A stretch of 33,739 nt of DNA from assembly GCA_025357055.1 (NCBI GenBank), contig JANXPZ010000187.1:1-33739 (forward strand), read 5' to 3'. Both the position numbers and the translations under genes were made by a program. Source of the DNA: Candidatus Eiseniibacteriota bacterium (lineage in GTDB: Bacteria > Eisenbacteria > RBG-16-71-46). Positions 6,196 through 23,311 of the stretch are shown piece by piece. Each line of letters begins with the position of its first letter. Position 1 is the stretch's first letter. The notes under the pieces are model-generated. The model was not told the DNA's origin, did no database searches, and worked only from the letters and a program-made list of their open reading frames with translations.

Positions 6196-9100
6196 ATGCG
6201 TGCACGAGGACTTTCGCGAAAGGAACATCGAGAGGTGCTCACGAAGCGTTTGCGGCTCGGCATCGGGATGTTCGCCCTGTCGTGGCTCGTCTGGGGACAT
6301 CCAGCCCTCGCCGACTGCCCGACGATCTCCGCCCCGCCAGACCAGTCCAAGTGCGAGGATGCCAGCGGGGCGACGCGGTTCAGTCTGAGCAGCAGCGGCG
6401 CCGATTCGTGCCGCTGGATCGTCCTGCCCGGCCGAACCATCGCCACCGGGTCGTACCAGGCGATCATCGGCGATCCGACCGCATGCGAGACGTACGTGGA
6501 CGTGATGACGGTCGGCCCCTGCACGGTGGCTCTGCAGTGGACGGCCAGCGCGGCGACCGCCCCGCCGTGCTCCGTGCGGGAGACCCTCTACGTCTCCGTC
6601 ACGCCCCGGCTGTCCCCGCGCGGGACCAGCGATGCCGAACGCTCCGGTTTCCACGACGCCAACCGGATCCGCACCGTGTTCTGGAACTACGGCATGGTCG
6701 GCGATTTTCCGCCGGACCCGGGCAAGGTGGACCTGAGCGTCTTCCACTCCGTCGAGGTTCCCAAGGGCAGCGGGATGAACTACACGGACGGGATCACGCC
6801 CTTCGTGATGGCCCGCATCGTCCAGACCACCGGTGACACCGCCATCGTCATGGAGACCGGGTTCCGCGAGCGGCAGGGCTCCAGCCCGCGCAACAACCGC
6901 ATCATGCGTTTCGAGCCGGTCCCCGGGTACTTCCAGGCCGACCCGAACATCAATCGGGGGCGCTCTCCGGCGATCAGCACCGACCGGCGGACCTGGCCGC
7001 CCGTCTGGCCGGGGAAGAAGTACGACCGCGACGATCCGGGCTGGCGGGGGAATGGGACGGACAATGCGCAATGGTGGGACGGCTACTTCGGCAAGCGCGC
7101 GGCGGCCGACCAGGAGAGTTTCACGGTCATGGATGACAACTTCTACGACGCCTGGGACTACGTCGCGAACGCGTGCGACCCCCCGCCCGGTCCCCCGCCA
7201 CCCCCGCTCCCGGGGCGCTACGGGCTCGGCCTGCGCGTCGAGGTGCGCGGGTTCCAGTGGGCGAACCCCCAGGCCGGGAACGTCATCTTCTGGCACTACG
7301 ACATCACCAACGAGAGCACGACCGACTACGCCGACAACGTCATCTTCGGCCTGTACGTGGACTCCGGGGTCGGCGGCTCGGCCGTCTCCTGCGACGGCAT
7401 CTATGAATCGGACGACGACAACGCGTACTTCGACCGGTCCTCGGGCCTCAACCTGGTCTACACTTGGGACACGGGGACGAACGGGGTGGGGCACGGCGTG
7501 GACCTCTCCGGCAACTGCGCGCTCACGGGCTACCTCGGCTACGCCTACATGGAGACGCCCGGGAACCAGTACGACGGGCTCGACAACGACCTGGACGGCA
7601 TCACCGACGAGAGCCGTGACGGTGGCCCCGGGATCCGGCTCGACGGCCCGCAGGCCATCCGGGACTACGTCTTCGCGCATTACGACATGGCCAGGTTCCA
7701 GGACTTCTACGGCCCGCTCGAGAACCGCCCGGCCTACCGTGCGGGCATCTGGTTCACGGGCGATGAGGACATGGACTGGACGGCGGAGTTCCACGACGTG
7801 GGCGCGGACGGTGTGGCCGGCACGAAGGACACGGGCGAGGGCGACGGGATCCCCACCGAGGGCGAGCCGAACTTCGACCGCACCGACAAGGACGAATCGG
7901 ACCAGATCGGCCTGACCGGCTTCAAGATGAACCGCATCAAGGCCGGCGCCGGCAACCCGGATCCGACGATCGACGACATCCTCTTCTACGAGCAGGCCAA
8001 ACGCTGGCCGACGCGGCTCTGGCAGCACTTCACCGATCCCAATCCTTCCGCCCGCTTCGACGCGGCGGTGGCGGCCAACTACAACATCGGCTTCCTGTTC
8101 GCCTCGGGACCGTTCAAGTTGCCGGCCGGGAAGCGCGAGCGCTTCAGCCTGGCGCTGGCCTACGGGCAGGACCTGACCGAGCTGCGCGAGACCGTGCGCA
8201 CCGTCCAGCTGATCTACAACGCGAACTACCAGTTCGCGGTCCCGCCGCCGCAGCCGACCGTGACGGCGGAGACCGGAGACGGCCGTGTACGGCTTTCGTG
8301 GGATGATGTCGCGGAGCGCGGGGTGGACCCCGTGACCAACACGTTCGACTTCGAGGGCTACCGCATCTACCGCTCGACCGACGCCGAGTTCCGCGATCCG
8401 CAGATCGTGGCCACGGGCTCGAACAGCCTCTGGCTCCCGAACGGGAAGCCCATCGCCCAGTTCGACCTCAAGGACGGCAAGACCGGCTACTCCCGCAAGG
8501 TCGTCGGCGGGATCGGCTACTACCTGGGGAAGGACACCGGCCTCACGCACACCTGGACCGACAGCACGGTGACGAACGGCCAGCAGTACTTCTATGCGGT
8601 GTGCGCCTACGACTACGGTTACGATCCCGGTTCCGACTCGCTCTCGATCTTCCCCTCGGAGAATTCGATCACGGTCTCGCGTACGCCGCGCGGTGGCCTC
8701 ATCCTGCCCAGCAACGTGGTCGTGGTGCGGCCCAACCCCCGGGTGTCCGGCTACCTTGAGGGCACCGCCAGCGATCCGGCGAAGGTGGCGGGGGACGGCA
8801 CCGGCTCGGTCCGCGTGGAGGTTCTCAACTCGGGGATCGTCCCGGATGGCAACCTGTTCCGGATCGGCTTCCTCGCGGACTCGCCGGACAGCGTCCACGC
8901 GACCTGGTACGAACTCCGGGACAGCACTTCGCACACCACGCTGTTCTCGCGTGGGACGGACTTCGATGGGCTGGGGACCGGCTCTACCGCCTCGGGCCTG
9001 CTTCCGGTCGTGAAGACCGGGCGGTTGGCCGTGGTGGACAACCTGGCCTCCCGGTTCCGTTCCGGGAGCTCCACGAACGCGGTCCTGTCCTCCTTCTACA

Positions 9101-9852
9101 CCGGCGCACTGTCGCAGAACCGGCGCCGCCTGGGCTACCCGGATGACATCCAGATCGTGTTCGAGGACGCGATCGTCGACACGGGGCTCGCGTGGGGGCC
9201 GGTCCCGCGGAATCCGGCGAGGTTCCGGGTCTTCGCCCGCACCGATACCGGCGACGTGCGGCTCCCGTTCCGTTTCCGTGACTACAACCGCAACGGCACG
9301 ATCGATTCGCTGGGCGAGTTCATCGAGGTCATCTCGCCCGGACCGCTGGTGCGCGTGGACTCGCTCGTGACCTGGCGCATCCAGCCCGTTTCCCGCGCCC
9401 CCACGGACCCACCCCTCCTGGCGCCCCGCGCGGGCGACATCTACGACCTGAAGATCGTCCGTCCGTTCGGCGTGTCGGATGTCTTCGTCTTCACCACCGC
9501 GGGCGAGGGCGTGGATCCCGCGAGGGCGCGCGCGGAGTTCGACCGGAAGCCCTACGTGGTGCCCAATCCCTACATCGGCGCGGCCAGCTTCGAACCCGGG
9601 CGCTATGCGATCTCGGGCCGGGGCGAGCGGCGCGTGGAGTTCCGCAACCTGCCCCAGAACTGCACGATCCGGATCTACACGGTGCGGGGCGACCTGGTGC
9701 GCACGCTGCGGCAGGACGGCTCGCTGGACGGATACGTCGCCTGGGACCTCCGCACGAAGGACAACCTGGAGGTCGCGCCCGGCCTGTACATCTACAACGT
9801 CGAAGCTCCCGGGGTGGGCGAGCAGACCGGGAAGCTCGCGGTCATCAAGTGA
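6196..9852 (+). CDS. Large secreted surface protein (1218 aa) with fibronectin type III-like and FlgD-like C-terminal domains
   Basis: ATG 6196 begins one base after the receptor stop; GTG 6235 is an alternative start that would place the signal peptide (hydrophobic stretch ending HPALA, before DCP) closer to the N-terminus and has AAAGGA upstream. I recognise no enzyme family. Visible parts are a long N-terminal region rich in Asp, Tyr and Trp, an Asp-rich calcium-binding-like stretch (DGLDNDLDGITDES, near residue 460), a fibronectin type III-like domain near 685-790 (VRLSWDD, GYRIYRSTD), and a C-terminal domain from about 1115 with VVPNPY, 'IRIYTVRGDLVRTLR' and GLYIYNV, ending KLAVIK. That end matches FlgD-like/T9SS-type sorting domains. 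Its place between receptor and PorV-like gene suggests a surface partner of the receptor. Confidence 0.7.
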   Translation: MRARGLSRKEHREVLTKRLRLGIGMFALSWLVWGHPALADCPTISAPPDQSKCEDASGATRFSLSSSGADSCRWIVLPGRTIATGSYQAIIGDPTACETYVDVMTVGPCTVALQWTASAATAPPCSVRETLYVSVTPRLSPRGTSDAERSGFHDANRIRTVFWNYGMVGDFPPDPGKVDLSVFHSVEVPKGSGMNYTDGITPFVMARIVQTTGDTAIVMETGFRERQGSSPRNNRIMRFEPVPGYFQADPNINRGRSPAISTDRRTWPPVWPGKKYDRDDPGWRGNGTDNAQWWDGYFGKRAAADQESFTVMDDNFYDAWDYVANACDPPPGPPPPPLPGRYGLGLRVEVRGFQWANPQAGNVIFWHYDITNESTTDYADNVIFGLYVDSGVGGSAVSCDGIYESDDDNAYFDRSSGLNLVYTWDTGTNGVGHGVDLSGNCALTGYLGYAYMETPGNQYDGLDNDLDGITDESRDGGPGIRLDGPQAIRDYVFAHYDMARFQDFYGPLENRPAYRAGIWFTGDEDMDWTAEFHDVGADGVAGTKDTGEGDGIPTEGEPNFDRTDKDESDQIGLTGFKMNRIKAGAGNPDPTIDDILFYEQAKRWPTRLWQHFTDPNPSARFDAAVAANYNIGFLFASGPFKLPAGKRERFSLALAYGQDLTELRETVRTVQLIYNANYQFAVPPPQPTVTAETGDGRVRLSWDDVAERGVDPVTNTFDFEGYRIYRSTDAEFRDPQIVATGSNSLWLPNGKPIAQFDLKDGKTGYSRKVVGGIGYYLGKDTGLTHTWTDSTVTNGQQYFYAVCAYDYGYDPGSDSLSIFPSENSITVSRTPRGGLILPSNVVVVRPNPRVSGYLEGTASDPAKVAGDGTGSVRVEVLNSGIVPDGNLFRIGFLADSPDSVHATWYELRDSTSHTTLFSRGTDFDGLGTGSTASGLLPVVKTGRLAVVDNLASRFRSGSSTNAVLSSFYTGALSQNRRRLGYPDDIQIVFEDAIVDTGLAWGPVPRNPARFRVFARTDTGDVRLPFRFRDYNRNGTIDSLGEFIEVISPGPLVRVDSLVTWRIQPVSRAPTDPPLLAPRAGDIYDLKIVRPFGVSDVFVFTTAGEGVDPARARAEFDRKPYVVPNPYIGAASFEPGRYAISGRGERRVEFRNLPQNCTIRIYTVRGDLVRTLRQDGSLDGYVAWDLRTKDNLEVAPGLYIYNVEAPGVGEQTGKLAVIK

Positions 9853-17516: not shown

Positions 17517-18340
17517 GGCGCAGGGCCCTGCTCTCCACGCTCGTCCTGCACGCCGCGCTCGTGCTCGGGGCGCTCGTCACCCTCACGCCCCTGCTGTGGA
17601 TGGTCTCGGCCTCGTTCATGTCGCCCGGCGAGTCGAACAGCTTCCCGCCCCGGCTCCTGCCCCGGATCCCGACGCTGCAGAACTACGTGGACCTGTTCAC
17701 GCGCCTGAACCTGGCGCGCTACCTGCTGAACAGCACCGTGGTCGCGGTCTCGGCGACGCTCATCTCGCTCGTCATCAACTCGATGGCGGGCTACGCCTTC
17801 GCCAAGCTGCGCTTCGTGGGGCGCGAGCGCGTCTTCCACGTCCTGCTCGCCGCCCTCGTCATCCCGGGGCAGGTGGGCATGCTGCCGCTCTTCCTGCTGC
17901 TGAAGTCGATGGGCCTGGTGAACACCATGGCCGGCGTGGTCGTCCCGTTCATGGCGGGCATCTTCGGCATCTTCATGATCCGCCAGTACGCGATGAGCAT
18001 CCCCGATGACCTGCTGGACGCGGCGCGCGTGGACGGCGCGGACGAGTACCGGATCTTCTGGAACATCGTGATCCCCGTCATCCAGCCCATCCTGGTGACG
18101 CTCGCGGTCTTCACCTTCCTCTCCGCGTGGAACGACTTCATGTGGCCCCTGATCGTGCTGAGCGACGACGCGAAGTACACGCTGCCGGTGGCGCTCGCGA
18201 GCCTCTCGGGGGAACACGTGCAGGACACCGGCCTGATGATGGCGGGCTCGGTGCTCACGGTGCTGCCGGTCGTGGTGCTCTTCATCGTGCTCCAGCGCGC
18301 CTACATCCGCGGCGTGATGATGGGGAGCGTGAAGGGATGA
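17513..18340 (+). CDS. ABC sugar-transporter permease, MalG-like (CUT1)
   Basis: 275 residues from ATG 17513, again in an ATGA overlap with the upstream gene. The N-terminal segment (LVTLTPLLWMVSASFM) and the following helices are typical of MalG-type subunits. The EAA-type loop DAARVDGADEYRIFWNIVIP at about 169-188 would contact the ATPase, and WNDFMWPLIVL follows shortly after. It forms the inner-membrane heterodimer with the product of the preceding gene. Its stop overlaps the start of the next gene, a large exported enzyme-like protein. Confidence 0.92.
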   Translation: MRRRALLSTLVLHAALVLGALVTLTPLLWMVSASFMSPGESNSFPPRLLPRIPTLQNYVDLFTRLNLARYLLNSTVVAVSATLISLVINSMAGYAFAKLRFVGRERVFHVLLAALVIPGQVGMLPLFLLLKSMGLVNTMAGVVVPFMAGIFGIFMIRQYAMSIPDDLLDAARVDGADEYRIFWNIVIPVIQPILVTLAVFTFLSAWNDFMWPLIVLSDDAKYTLPVALASLSGEHVQDTGLMMAGSVLTVLPVVVLFIVLQRAYIRGVMMGSVKG

Positions 18341-21300
18341 GGGGCCGGCTGCGGGTGGCGCTGCTCGCCGTGCTGACGGTCGCGTGCGTCGCGCCCGCGC
18401 GGTCCGCACCCGCCCCGCCAGCGCCGGTCTCCGCCCCGGCCGCGGCGGCCACGGTGGTCACGGCGGTGCCGCCGGGCGCCACGGCGCCCTCCGCCGAGCT
18501 CGTGGATGGCTTCGACGACGACGCCGCGTGGACGGCGCAGCCTTCCGACGGCGTCGAGCTGAAGCTCTCCGGCGAAACGGCCCGCGCGGACTCCGCCGCT
18601 CCCGGGGGCGGCCGCTCGCTGCGGGTGGACTTCCGCTTCGTCAAGGGCGGCGGCTACGCCGTGCTCCACCGCAGACTCGACCTCGTCCTGCCGGAGAACT
18701 ACCGTTTCACGTTCCGCGTGCGCGGCGACTGCCCGCCCGAGAACCTCGAGTTCAAGCTCATCGACTCGACCGGGGCGAACGTCTGGTGGCACAACCAGCG
18801 TGACTTCCGCTTCCCGCGGGACTGGGAGACGGTCACGATCCGCCGGCGCCAGATCTCCTTCGCCTGGGGGCCGGCCGGAGGCGGCGAGTTGCGCCGCGCA
18901 GCCGCCATCGAATTCGCCATCACCGCGGGCAGCGGGGGCAGCGGCACCGTGTGGCTCGACGACCTCGTGATGACGCCGCTGCCGCCCTCGAGCGCCACGC
19001 CGCCGCCCGTGGTGGCCACGGCCTCGTCCGTCCGCCCCGGCTGCGCGGCGCAAGGCGCCGTGGACGGCGCGGCGCGGACCGCGTGGATCAGCGCGGTGGC
19101 GGACGGCGCTCCGTGGCTCGAGTTGGACCTGGGCGGATTGCGGGAGTTCGGCGGGCTGGTCGTGGACCGCGCGAAGGAGTGGCGCGCGTCGGGCTACCTC
19201 GCCGAGGTCTCCGACGACCGTGCGGCCTGGCGCGTGCTGCGGACCGTGGGGGCCGTGCGGCGCGGGCGCGATCACCTCGACCTGCCCGAGACCGAGGCTC
19301 GCTACCTCCGTCTGCGCGCGCTCGGGGAGGGCGCGATGGCCGTGAGCGAGGTGCGGGTGATGCCGCTCGAGTGGGCGGCCACGCCCGCAGCCTTCTTCCG
19401 CGCCGTCGCGGCCGACGCTCCGCGCGGCACCTATCCCCGTGCGATCACGGGCGAGCAGTCCTTCTGGACCGTGGTGGGGGCGGACGGTGACCGGCGGGAG
19501 GGACTCCTCGGCCAGGACGGGATGCTGGAGACCGGACAGGGCGCGTACTCGATCGAGCCGTTCCTCTTCAGCCGGGGGAAGCTGGTCGGCTGGGCCGACG
19601 TGAAGCCGGAGGCCGCGCTCGAGGAGGGCTCGCTGCCCATCCCCTCGGTGCGCTGGCAGCGCGACGACCTGGAATTGACCGTCACCGCGTTCGCCGACGG
19701 CGGAGCGGGCGCCTCGTCGCTGGTCGCGCGATACCGGGTGCGGAACCTGGGCACGGGGCCCGTGAGCGCCACGTTGTACCTGGCGCTGCGGCCCTTCCAG
19801 GTGAATCCGCCGGCGCAGTTCCTGGGGCTCCCAGGCGGGGTCGCGCCGTTGCGCTCGATCTTCGCCGACGGCCAGGTGATCCGCGTGAACGGGGACCGTG
19901 GCGTGGTCTGCCTCACCGCGCCCGACGGCTTCGGCGCGATCGGTTCCGCCGAGGGCGATGTCGTCGCCGACTACCTGCGCGAGGACCGCCTGCCACCGCG
20001 CACGCATGCCACCGACCTGCTCGAGCGGGCCTCGGGCGCGCTCGCCTGGCGGCTGGAGCTGGCGGCCGGGGCCGAGGACGAGGTGGACCTCGTCATCCCG
20101 CTGCACGACCGGCCCGCGGCCCCGCCCGAGCGCACCGACGGCGCCTGGCGCGCCGAGGTCGAGGCCCGGCTCGCTGCCTGCCGCGAGGCCTGGCGCACGC
20201 GCGCGGACCGCATGAGCCTGCGGCTCCCCGGGGCCGCGGCCGACATCGCCCGGGCACTCGAGGCCCAGCTCGGCTGGATCCTCGTGAACCGCGACAGCGC
20301 CGGCATCCAGCCGGGCTCGCGCTCCTACTCGCGTTCGTGGATCCGCGATGGCGCGCTGACCTCCGCGGCCCTGCTGCGTCTCGGCCAGCCGGAGCCGGTG
20401 AAGGAGTTCATCGAGTGGTTCGAGCCCTATCAGTATGCCGATGGCAAGGTGCCCTGCTGCGTGGACACGCGCGGCTCGGACCCGGTGCCCGAGCACGATT
20501 CGGGCGGCGAGTTCATCTACCTGGTGGCCGAGTACTTCCGCCACACCGGAGACCGCGCGCTGATCGAGCGGCAGTGGCCCGCGGTGGCGGCGGCCGCGGC
20601 GTACCTGGACTCGCTGCGGCAGCTGCGGCGCACTTCCGAGTGGCGCGCGCCGGGGAAGGAGGAGTTCTTCGGGCTGTTGCCGCCTTCGATCAGCCACGAG
20701 GGCTACTCGGCGAAGCCCATGCACTCCTACTGGGACGACCTCTTCGCCCTGCGCGGCTTCAAGGACGCCGCATTCCTGGCCGGGGTGCTCGGGCGCGAGG
20801 CCGACGCGCTGCGCCTCGCCGCCGTGCGGGACGAGTTCCAGAGGGAGCTGGTGGCTTCGGTCGGGGCCACGATGCGGAGGCACCGCATCGACTACCTCCC
20901 CGGCTGTGCCGACCTCGGCGACTTCGACGCCACCTCCACCACCATCGCGCTGGACCCCGTGCAGGCGGCGGACGTCCTGCCGCGCGCGGCGCTCGAGCGC
21001 ACGTTCGAGCGCTACTGGGAGTTCTTCCGCGAGCGTCGCGACGGCGTGAAGTCCTGGGAGGCCTTCACGCCCTACGAGATGCGCACCATCGGCGCCTTCG
21101 CGCGGCTGGGCTGGCGCGAGCGGGCCGACAGCCTGCTCACCTTCTTCCTGCGCTACCGCCGCCCGCCCGGCTGGCAGCAGTGGGCCGAGGTGGCCTGGCA
21201 CGACGAACAGACCCCGCACTTCATCGGCGACCTGCCTCACACCTGGGTGGGCTCGGACTTCGTGCGCTCGGTGCTGGATCTGTTCGCCTACGAGGACGAG

Positions 21301-21600
21301 TCGGACAGCACGCTGGTGATCGCGGCGGGCGTGCCGCTCGCCTGGGTCACGGAATCGCCCGGCCTGGCGTTGCGGGGGCTCTCGACCTCCTTCGGGCCGC
21401 TGAGCTACACCCTGCGCGGGCGCGGCCGGGGGATCGAGGCACGCATCGAGGCGGGCCTGCGCGTGCCCCCCGGTGGTATCGTGCTGCGCCCCCCGGGGAG
21501 CTTCGGAAGTGCCCGGGTGAACGGCTCGCCCGTCGCGGTCGGTCCCGCGGGCGAGGTGGTGCTGCGTGACCTGCCGGCCACGGTGGTGCTCAGGCCCTGA
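18337..21600 (+). CDS. Exported multidomain protein: carbohydrate-binding beta-sandwiches plus (alpha/alpha)6-barrel glycosidase-like domain
   Basis: 1087 residues from ATG 18337 (ATGA overlap). A signal peptide with Cys17 (LAVLTVACVAPARSA) could be a lipoprotein or cleaved signal. Residues about 45-215 look like a CBM11/CIA30-type beta-sandwich (ENYRFTFRVRG, WETVTIRRRQISF, GTVWLDDLVM). About 225-350 is discoidin/F5-8 type (WLELDLGG, YLAEVSDDRAAWRVL, ARYLRLRALGEG). After a further beta region, about 650-1010 is a six-hairpin barrel with SYSRSWIRDGALTSAALLRLG (D671), HDSGGEFIYLVAEYFRHTGD and GDLPHTWVGSDFVRSVLDLF. The RDGA motif occurs in several (alpha/alpha)6 glycosidases, but I cannot assign a numbered family. 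By position it is a candidate exo-acting enzyme on the imported or surface glucan. A pure binding or scaffold role is also possible. Confidence 0.7.
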   Translation: MRGRLRVALLAVLTVACVAPARSAPAPPAPVSAPAAAATVVTAVPPGATAPSAELVDGFDDDAAWTAQPSDGVELKLSGETARADSAAPGGGRSLRVDFRFVKGGGYAVLHRRLDLVLPENYRFTFRVRGDCPPENLEFKLIDSTGANVWWHNQRDFRFPRDWETVTIRRRQISFAWGPAGGGELRRAAAIEFAITAGSGGSGTVWLDDLVMTPLPPSSATPPPVVATASSVRPGCAAQGAVDGAARTAWISAVADGAPWLELDLGGLREFGGLVVDRAKEWRASGYLAEVSDDRAAWRVLRTVGAVRRGRDHLDLPETEARYLRLRALGEGAMAVSEVRVMPLEWAATPAAFFRAVAADAPRGTYPRAITGEQSFWTVVGADGDRREGLLGQDGMLETGQGAYSIEPFLFSRGKLVGWADVKPEAALEEGSLPIPSVRWQRDDLELTVTAFADGGAGASSLVARYRVRNLGTGPVSATLYLALRPFQVNPPAQFLGLPGGVAPLRSIFADGQVIRVNGDRGVVCLTAPDGFGAIGSAEGDVVADYLREDRLPPRTHATDLLERASGALAWRLELAAGAEDEVDLVIPLHDRPAAPPERTDGAWRAEVEARLAACREAWRTRADRMSLRLPGAAADIARALEAQLGWILVNRDSAGIQPGSRSYSRSWIRDGALTSAALLRLGQPEPVKEFIEWFEPYQYADGKVPCCVDTRGSDPVPEHDSGGEFIYLVAEYFRHTGDRALIERQWPAVAAAAAYLDSLRQLRRTSEWRAPGKEEFFGLLPPSISHEGYSAKPMHSYWDDLFALRGFKDAAFLAGVLGREADALRLAAVRDEFQRELVASVGATMRRHRIDYLPGCADLGDFDATSTTIALDPVQAADVLPRAALERTFERYWEFFRERRDGVKSWEAFTPYEMRTIGAFARLGWRERADSLLTFFLRYRRPPGWQQWAEVAWHDEQTPHFIGDLPHTWVGSDFVRSVLDLFAYEDESDSTLVIAAGVPLAWVTESPGLALRGLSTSFGPLSYTLRGRGRGIEARIEAGLRVPPGGIVLRPPGSFGSARVNGSPVAVGPAGEVVLRDLPATVVLRP

Positions 21601-21637
21601 GCGCAGCCGCAGTCGCAGGACGAAGAGGAGGCCGCCG

Positions 21638-23311
21638 ATGACCCGTGAACTGCGCCGCCGCATCGCCGTCACGCTGGGGCTCGTCGTGGCTGCCGAGGCC
21701 CTGCGTTGGATCCCGGTCCCGGGCGTGAATGCGGGGGTGCTCCTCGGGCTCGTCGCGGTCACGCCGGGCGCGCAAGTCTTCGACGGGCTCGCCGGGCGCG
21801 CTTCCATTGGCACGCTTGGGGTCGGCCCCTACGTCTCCGCTTCGATCCTGGCGGTGCTGGTCTTCCTGGCGCGGCGCCGCGACGCGCCGGGGGAGGCCAC
21901 AGGCTATCCATTCGAGGCGCACGCGATGTGGATCGCACTGCCCATCGCGCTGGTCCAGGGGTTCGCCTGGGCGGTCTTCCTGCAGAATCTGGGTCCTGCC
22001 GGCGGCCAGCCCATCGTCCCGTCGCCGGGGCCCGCGTTCCTCGCGACCGCCGCGCTGACCATCGCCGCCGGGGCGATGCTGACGGTGGCCCTGGCGCGGC
22101 TCATCTCGCGCCACGGCGTGGGCAACGGGCTCTGCGTGCTGCTGGCGGCGCAGTTGGCCCGGAGCCAGTCGGACGGACTCGCCGCGGACTGGCTCGGAGG
22201 CGGGGGCGGACTGCGGCAGAACGCCCCTGCGCTCGCGTTGCTGCTGGCGGTGTTCATGCTGCTGGCCGTCCTGTGGCTTTCGTCACGCTGGACGGCCACG
22301 GAGTCGCGCCCGGTGAAGGGTCCGGGGGCCCTGGAGCCGTGGTGGCTGCGCGCGAACGTCGCTGGCATCGCGGGGCTCTCGCTCGCGATGTCGATCCTGA
22401 CGGTGCCGGTGGTCCTGGCGAGCTACCTGCCCCCGGGGCAGGCAGCTCCGGGCTGGACGTCGGCGTTGGACCTCGCCCGACCGGCCGGGGCCATCTCCTT
22501 CGTCGTCCTGTCCGTCCTGGCCACGTGGCTGTTCACGGCCTGGGCGCTCGACCCGGACCGGCTGGTTCGCGCGCTCCCGGCGACCGGTGACGGCGACCCG
22601 GAGGCAAGCTTCGACGAACGTCGCTTTGAACGCAGGGCGCTCGCGGCGACCTTCTGGTTCGCGGTTGGCGCTCCCGTCGCCGTCGTGCTGTTCGGGTTGG
22701 CCACCCGCAGGTTGGGGGCCCCCAGTCTCTCGGCAGTCGCGCTTGCGGTGCTGGTGGCGGTGATCCTGGATACCATCCACCAGTTCCGTGCCCACACTGA
22801 GCTGGCGCGGGCCCTGGGCGCGCCCGCGGGCGGGGGGAACTGCGGGGACTGCGGGGGGCTGCTGGCCGGCGACGAGGCCTTCTGCCCGGCCTGTGGCGCG
22901 GCCTTCGAAGCTGCGCCCGCCTGCGCGTCCCACCCCGGCGAGCCGGCGCTCGCGCGCTGCGTGGTCTGTGCGAGGCCGCTCTGCGGCGAGTGCGCGCTCG
23001 AGCGCGAGGGCCGCTCGGCGTGCGGGGAGCACCCCGGGGTCGCGTTCGTCGAGGGCTGGGCGGTGGCCGCGGTCGCGGAGACCCCGGTCGAGGCCGAGGG
23101 CCTGCGGCGGCGGCTCGCGACGGCGGGAGTGGAGGGCAGGGTGCTGGCCGGCACCTGCACGGCGCTGCAGGGCACGCTCGGGCTCTACGACCTGACTCCG
23201 GTGATCCCGCTGCTGGCGCACGCCTCGTGCGGCGGCGGGTCGGTGCGCGTGCTGGTGCGCCCCGGTGAATATGGCCGGGTCGCGGAGCTGCTCGCCGCCC
23301 CGGCGGACTGA
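21638..23311 (+). CDS. Divergent SecY paralogue fused to zinc-ribbon, B-box-like and DUF2007-like domains
   Basis: 557 residues; ATG 21638 has AGGAGG six bases upstream (21626-21631). Residues 1-395 follow SecY through all ten membrane segments: RWIPVPGVN (23-31), a plug-like VFDGLAGRASIGTLG then GPYVSASIL (63-71), RHGVGNG (158-164; SecY has RGIGNG), NVAGIAGLSLAMSILTVPVVLASYLPP, and LFTAWALDPDRL before the last two helices. The cytoplasmic loop between helices 6 and 7, which in SecY touches SecA or the ribosome, is short and has lost the usual arginine-rich signature. After the channel come a CxxC/CxxC zinc ribbon (C402, C405, C416, C419), a B-box-like set (C429, H432, C441, C444, C449, C452, C462, H465) and a DUF2007-like domain (about 475-553). 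It is probably not the housekeeping translocon. The function is unknown; specialised export is possible. Confidence 0.72.
   Translation: MTRELRRRIAVTLGLVVAAEALRWIPVPGVNAGVLLGLVAVTPGAQVFDGLAGRASIGTLGVGPYVSASILAVLVFLARRRDAPGEATGYPFEAHAMWIALPIALVQGFAWAVFLQNLGPAGGQPIVPSPGPAFLATAALTIAAGAMLTVALARLISRHGVGNGLCVLLAAQLARSQSDGLAADWLGGGGGLRQNAPALALLLAVFMLLAVLWLSSRWTATESRPVKGPGALEPWWLRANVAGIAGLSLAMSILTVPVVLASYLPPGQAAPGWTSALDLARPAGAISFVVLSVLATWLFTAWALDPDRLVRALPATGDGDPEASFDERRFERRALAATFWFAVGAPVAVVLFGLATRRLGAPSLSAVALAVLVAVILDTIHQFRAHTELARALGAPAGGGNCGDCGGLLAGDEAFCPACGAAFEAAPACASHPGEPALARCVVCARPLCGECALEREGRSACGEHPGVAFVEGWAVAAVAETPVEAEGLRRRLATAGVEGRVLAGTCTALQGTLGLYDLTPVIPLLAHASCGGGSVRVLVRPGEYGRVAELLAAPAD

Follow-up and report, generated by a model that had tools for sequence, protein, structure and literature searches.

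A SecY paralogue in a glucan-use locus

The window, that is, the whole stretch of 33,739 nucleotides analysed here, carries on its plus strand at positions 21638..23311 the gene of a 557-residue protein, P0001, a SecY paralogue whose C-terminal part consists of zinc and DUF2007-like domains. The gene starts with an ATG, six bases after a Shine-Dalgarno-like AGGAGG (21626..21631, plus strand), and it has coding composition, its GC content by codon position (0.76/0.58/0.905) being like that of the neighbouring genes. The preceding gene of the operon (18127..21600, plus strand) encodes an F5/8 type C and six-hairpin glycosidase-like protein. Its stop at 21600 leaves 37 bp before P0001, as stated in the original prediction. 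Also upstream are found secreted proteins with C-terminal sorting-like domains, a TonB receptor, two PF10091 glucoamylase-like proteins, a LacI regulator, a solute-binding protein, two ABC permeases and a hairpin glycosidase, and on the downstream side a GH94 phosphorylase is encoded by the opposite strand. The P0001 locus is a glucan-use locus and holds no gene recognisable as coding for SecE, SecG or SecA. A further gene of the window, at 6196-9852, is flanked by the TonB receptor gene and the glucoamylase-like genes; its product of 1218 residues has no Pfam match.

Residues 1-398 of P0001 (21638..22831, plus strand) constitute a SecY-like membrane domain. They match the Pfam SecY family (PF00344) with E 4.9e-19 and 69.3 bits, above the gathering cut-off of 32.2 (70.8 bits in a search of its own genome), and phmmer aligned residues 4-388 with solved SecY chains of the PDB, in agreement with the earlier claim that the first 395 residues follow SecY. 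The motifs claimed at the same time, PVPG, PYVSASIL, GVGNG and NVAG, are all found in the protein. Hydropathy gave ten peaks within residues 1-398, one of which (30-48) falls over the loop before helix 2, helix 5 remaining below threshold. All ten SecY helices were nevertheless placed by alignment, and the predicted ten-helix plan holds. The structure comparison that had been proposed as a check also recovered the SecY fold: Foldseek run with a predicted model of low confidence (pLDDT 53, pTM 0.49) retrieved SecY/Sec61 alone at E<=0.001, with a best value of 5.1e-11. Since the input alignment of this model consisted of window and housekeeping SecY sequences, the fold match is partly circular, but the independent phmmer match agrees with it.

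The genome assembly (G000; 3.3 Mb, 96.8% complete, 234 contigs) contains an ordinary housekeeping SecY of 441 residues on contig C17, between rplO/rpsE and adk. P0001, which is 27% identical to it, is therefore a paralogue. It lies outside the ribosomal-protein cluster, and the cluster on C17 carries the other SecY. The idea that P0001 might be the sole SecY of its genome, raised in the original prediction as a reason to abandon it, was rejected on this basis.

Docking loops, pore ring and soluble domains

The cytosolic loops of SecY are bound by SecA, and the pore ring of the E. coli channel is made of six isoleucines (PMC8082313). Loop C4 of P0001, between helices 6 and 7, is reduced to a remnant (residues 215-236; 22280..22345, plus strand) that has lost the basic ribosome/SecA-docking block, keeping 2/9 near-invariant housekeeping columns with a net charge of +1 versus +6. 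Likewise, the C5 remnant between helices 8 and 9 (residues 305-336; 22550..22645, plus strand) has lost PGIRPG, which includes the R357 equivalent, and keeps 2/9 near-invariant columns with a net charge of -2 versus +3. The arginine of PGIRPG, kept in 45 of 47 housekeeping SecYs, aligns with a glycine in P0001 and with an alanine in its relative P0002, described below. Compared with the same 47 sequences, C4 and C5 together retain 4/18 near-invariant columns in P0001 and 1/18 in P0002 (0/9 in C4 for the latter), against 37/91 and 47/91, respectively, in the membrane core. This contrast between core and loops was significant for P0002 (Fisher, p 0.0002) and not for P0001 taken alone (p 0.19). 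The loss of the SecA/ribosome docking loops is supported, and it recurs in relatives. The C5 mutation R357E leaves SecA binding intact while uncoupling plug opening (PMC6021171), and it does not stop ribosome-induced gating (PMC3689939). Little can hence be concluded from the missing arginine alone; losing the loops as a whole carries more weight. The pore-ring positions read V V L L S V in P0001, five of the six being aliphatic with a serine at the I278 position, and L I V V I V, all aliphatic, in P0002.

The membrane domain is followed by exactly twelve cysteines and histidines that form two sites, as had been predicted. C402, C405, C416 and C419 make up a zinc ribbon (22841..22894, plus strand), recognised from the cysteine spacing, a Pfam DZR match (E 0.02) and its resemblance to P0003, a protein discussed below. 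The second site is a B-box-like finger with C429, H432, C441, C444, C449, C452, C462 and H465 (22922..23032, plus strand). All eight ligands are present, spaced as in P0003, and the Pfam zf-B_box score (PF00643; E 8.6e-5, 23.1 bits) falls just below the cut-off of 24.1.

Residues 470-557 (23045..23308, plus strand) form a DUF2007-like domain with a predicted beta-alpha-beta...beta-alpha pattern. DUF2007 (PF09413, 'putative prokaryotic signal transducing protein') is a common domain without known function, and its predicted strand-helix pattern is the same as that of the tails. It is the sole Pfam family matched by the tails, weakly in P0001 (E 0.13) and more strongly in two relatives, P0002 (E 0.005) and P0005 (E 8.8e-5); the scores of 12.9, 17.4 and 23.0 for P0001, P0002 and P0005 all remain below the cut-off of 25.7. 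The P0001 tail is nonetheless homologous to those of P0002 (shuffle p 0.001) and P0005 (p <0.001), which backs the earlier assignment where the match of P0001 itself is weak. A profile of three tails also matched a bona fide free-standing DUF2007 protein (E 5.6e-4). The tails of P0001, P0002 and P0005 differ from DUF2007 in their fusion to a membrane protein and in an extra block, 'G(S/T)..(Y/W)(D/E/S)(L/V)..P...L..H..LG.G', shared by all three. A fold search with the P0001 tail gave no significant match, the solved DUF2007 structure 2hfv being among the non-significant ones.

P0003 is a free-standing zinc ribbon and B-box protein encoded beside a YbbR-like gene in genome G020 (L053:8682-9275, minus strand). 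It is 35% identical to P0001 over 99 residues that span ribbon and B-box together, with the same spacing. A relationship of its own tail to the DUF2007-like tails was not supported (shuffle p 0.33). As P0003 shares the two zinc sites and has a tail not measurably related to the others, the zinc block of P0001 has, from these sequences, the look of a module that was inserted after SecY and ahead of the DUF2007-like tail. Among the fused soluble domains of the original prediction, the DUF2007-like tail is common to relatives whereas the zinc fingers are peculiar to P0001. Another membrane protein, at L054:1025-1783 (minus strand), combines a B-box-like finger with a set of hydrophobic helices after it that give a weak TM2-type match.

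Relatives and their distribution

Three relatives of P0001 were found in 47 genomes of its phylum and about 700 from elsewhere. Within the phylum, a second, low-scoring SecY occurs in 3/47 genomes (G000, G031 and G040), each of a different family, and no divergent second SecY was detected in the 133 genomes of a neighbouring phylum. The three-tail profile, run against 385 genomes across the domain, yielded one further true relative, in G414, to which two further searches around that genome added none. The broad searches scored no more than 13 candidates per genome, so that members can be missed. Viral contigs gave no relative, and the plasmid copies among the matches listed resemble housekeeping secY, found on megaplasmids or in chromosome records. 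In one Klebsiella plasmid record (L079, NZ_MK433207.1:91985-94543) a portion of the ribosomal-protein cluster, rpmD-rplO-secY-rpmJ-rpsM, is present through real transfer or assembly error. Eighteen loci from a scan of genome contigs were rejected as fusion relatives: 17 hold SecYs with housekeeping scores (15 beside rplO/rpsE, L019 beside rpsE alone and L017 without marker), and L020 has a zinc-ribbon match only. Weak matches of the tail profile in G229 and G464 were attributed to chance from their ORFs. Our literature search returned no paper pairing SecY with DUF2007.

P0002, from G031, has 530 residues, with a DUF2007-like tail after SecY and no zinc sites. Its gene and the end of a class II aldolase gene overlap, in a locus (L051:2145-10548, G031:C115) that also encodes two BMC shell proteins, EutN/CcmL, an aldehyde dehydrogenase and an RpiB-DeoC fusion, and which is a microcompartment sugar operon. 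The G040 copy (L052:1600-2480, G040:C137, minus strand) is decayed: it begins at helix 4 and is frameshifted before the tail. By eye, it adjoins an apparent duplicated fragment of a macrodomain-type gene.

P0005, from G414 and hence from another phylum, has 360 residues comprising an N-terminal 4-Cys ribbon, five helices and a DUF2007-like tail. Its helices 1-3 match SecY helices 1-3 (BLAST E 1e-11 to P0002; Pfam SecY E 2e-4) and its tail matches that of P0002 (BLAST E 7e-15 for the alignment including the tail). The last two helices match helices 9-10 of P0002 and no other part of it (p 0.006), and P0005 thus probably keeps SecY helices 9-10; helices 4-8 are missing. The part common to the three proteins is therefore SecY helices 1-3 with the DUF2007-like domain, which does not make a complete pore. 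All three are intact ORFs with coherent motifs at about 30% identity. P0005 sits in a methyltransferase/BNR locus. The suggestion that the substrates are proteins of the P0001 locus found no support, as the loci all differ (a beta-glucan operon, a microcompartment operon and a methyltransferase/BNR locus).

A housekeeping SecY was found in every genome bearing a relative, including a full SecY of about 454 residues in G414. In a tree with housekeeping SecYs, P0001 and P0002 grouped together (94/93, not starred), but both branches reached the length ceiling of the program, so neither their origin nor their grouping is safe. No second SecA was found: G031, G040 and G414 have one each, and the G000 assembly, which is fragmented, yielded none. 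Nor was any neighbour of the copies recognised as a SecE/SecG-like gene.

A possible anchor, sensor or channel

P0001 is a SecY-fold paralogue from which the SecA/ribosome docking loops are gone, with a cytosolic DUF2007-like end and two zinc sites inserted before it. It has in common with general SecY/Sec61alpha (PF00344, TIGR00967) the fold, the order of the ten helices and the motifs PxPG, PY(I/V)SASI, GVGNG and N.AG, and differs from it by the absence of the C4 and C5 docking loops and the presence of the C-terminal zinc and DUF2007-like domains. Its 67.7 bits against TIGR00967 are far below the equivalog cut-off of 253.6. The nearest functional parallel is the accessory SecY2 of streptococci and relatives, which, like P0001, is a divergent SecY present in addition to the housekeeping copy. 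P0001 scores 25.1 against the SecY2 model TIGR02920 (cut-off 249.6) and 35.3 against NF009082 (cut-off 353), about 225 and 318 bits short, respectively, and unlike SecY2 it was seen with no accessory-Sec genes and no SecA2 was found. To our knowledge, SecY2 has no fused domains, and the described SecY duplicates (SecY2, organelle systems) remain translocons.

We favour, at about an even chance, the view that P0001 serves its cytosolic domains as a membrane anchor or sensor derived from SecY. A SecY duplicate would have departed from the general secretion pathway, and its conserved job would be something other than polypeptide passage through a complete pore. The SecY-derived helices would tether the C-terminal domain to the inner side of the membrane, where this domain, with the zinc fingers in P0001, may act as a membrane adaptor or sensor by binding a partner, either a protein or a small molecule; in G000 and G031 the protein would be co-expressed with a sugar-catabolic operon. 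We prefer this anchor or sensor role because the docking loops are lost in P0001 and P0002, P0005 is devoid of helices 4-8, the three tails are homologous, G031, G040 and G414 have no second SecA, divergence is extreme, with branch lengths at the ceiling, a housekeeping SecY accompanies every copy and no SecE/SecG-like neighbour was recognised. Against it, the complete SecY layout is preserved in P0001 and P0002, including GVGNG, the N.AG of helix 7 and a mostly aliphatic pore ring, as in a retained channel, and P0005 might represent a side branch whose function has been lost.

The same retained features leave room for a specialised translocon, which we consider distinctly less probable: a ten-helix channel that would work with the housekeeping SecE/SecG, be gated by its own zinc and DUF2007-like domains instead of SecA or the ribosome, and export or insert few substrates. 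Besides the SecY fold and motifs of P0001 and the mostly hydrophobic ring, it has a precedent in accessory SecY2, a SecY duplicate that works with separate partners (PMC5076819). It agrees less well with the lost docking loops, with the lack of a dedicated SecA or of a recognised SecE/G-like gene nearby, and with loci that share no substrate gene. The specialised channel of the original prediction thus keeps its paralogy, its fusion and its docking-loop loss, but P0005, in which helices 4-8 are absent, argues against a pore as the function in common.

A recently freed duplicate drifting towards loss without maintained function would account for the pseudogene in G040, with its cut 5' end and its frameshift, for the patchy occurrence in 3/47 genomes and for the very long branches. 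We regard it as improbable in view of three intact proteins (557, 530 and 360 residues) with coherent motifs, of the good ribosome-binding site and normal codon-position GC of P0001, and of tails conserved across two phyla. A sequencing or assembly error that fused part of a secY gene with the gene of some unrelated zinc protein comes to mind for a genome in 234 contigs that seems to be a metagenome assembly. Such a chimera is very hard to credit given the single frame and uniform codon composition of P0001 and the recurrence of the SecY-tail union in G031 and G414 and, decayed, in G040.

Extended to the relatives, and held somewhat more tentatively than the anchor or sensor role of P0001, the proposal is that SecY is the ancestor of a family of membrane proteins that no longer translocate, lost the docking loops and were fused to a DUF2007-like, sometimes zinc-containing, module, one line without helices 4-8 having become a five-helix anchor for a cytosolic sensor. 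These rare relatives suggest the recycling of a universal protein channel for another job. The SecY fold could then serve another use without motor or ribosome docking and, in P0005, without its central helices, and these proteins would show, as experiments of nature, which portions of SecY are able to fold when the pore is missing. DUF2007 would in turn gain a membrane context for testing.
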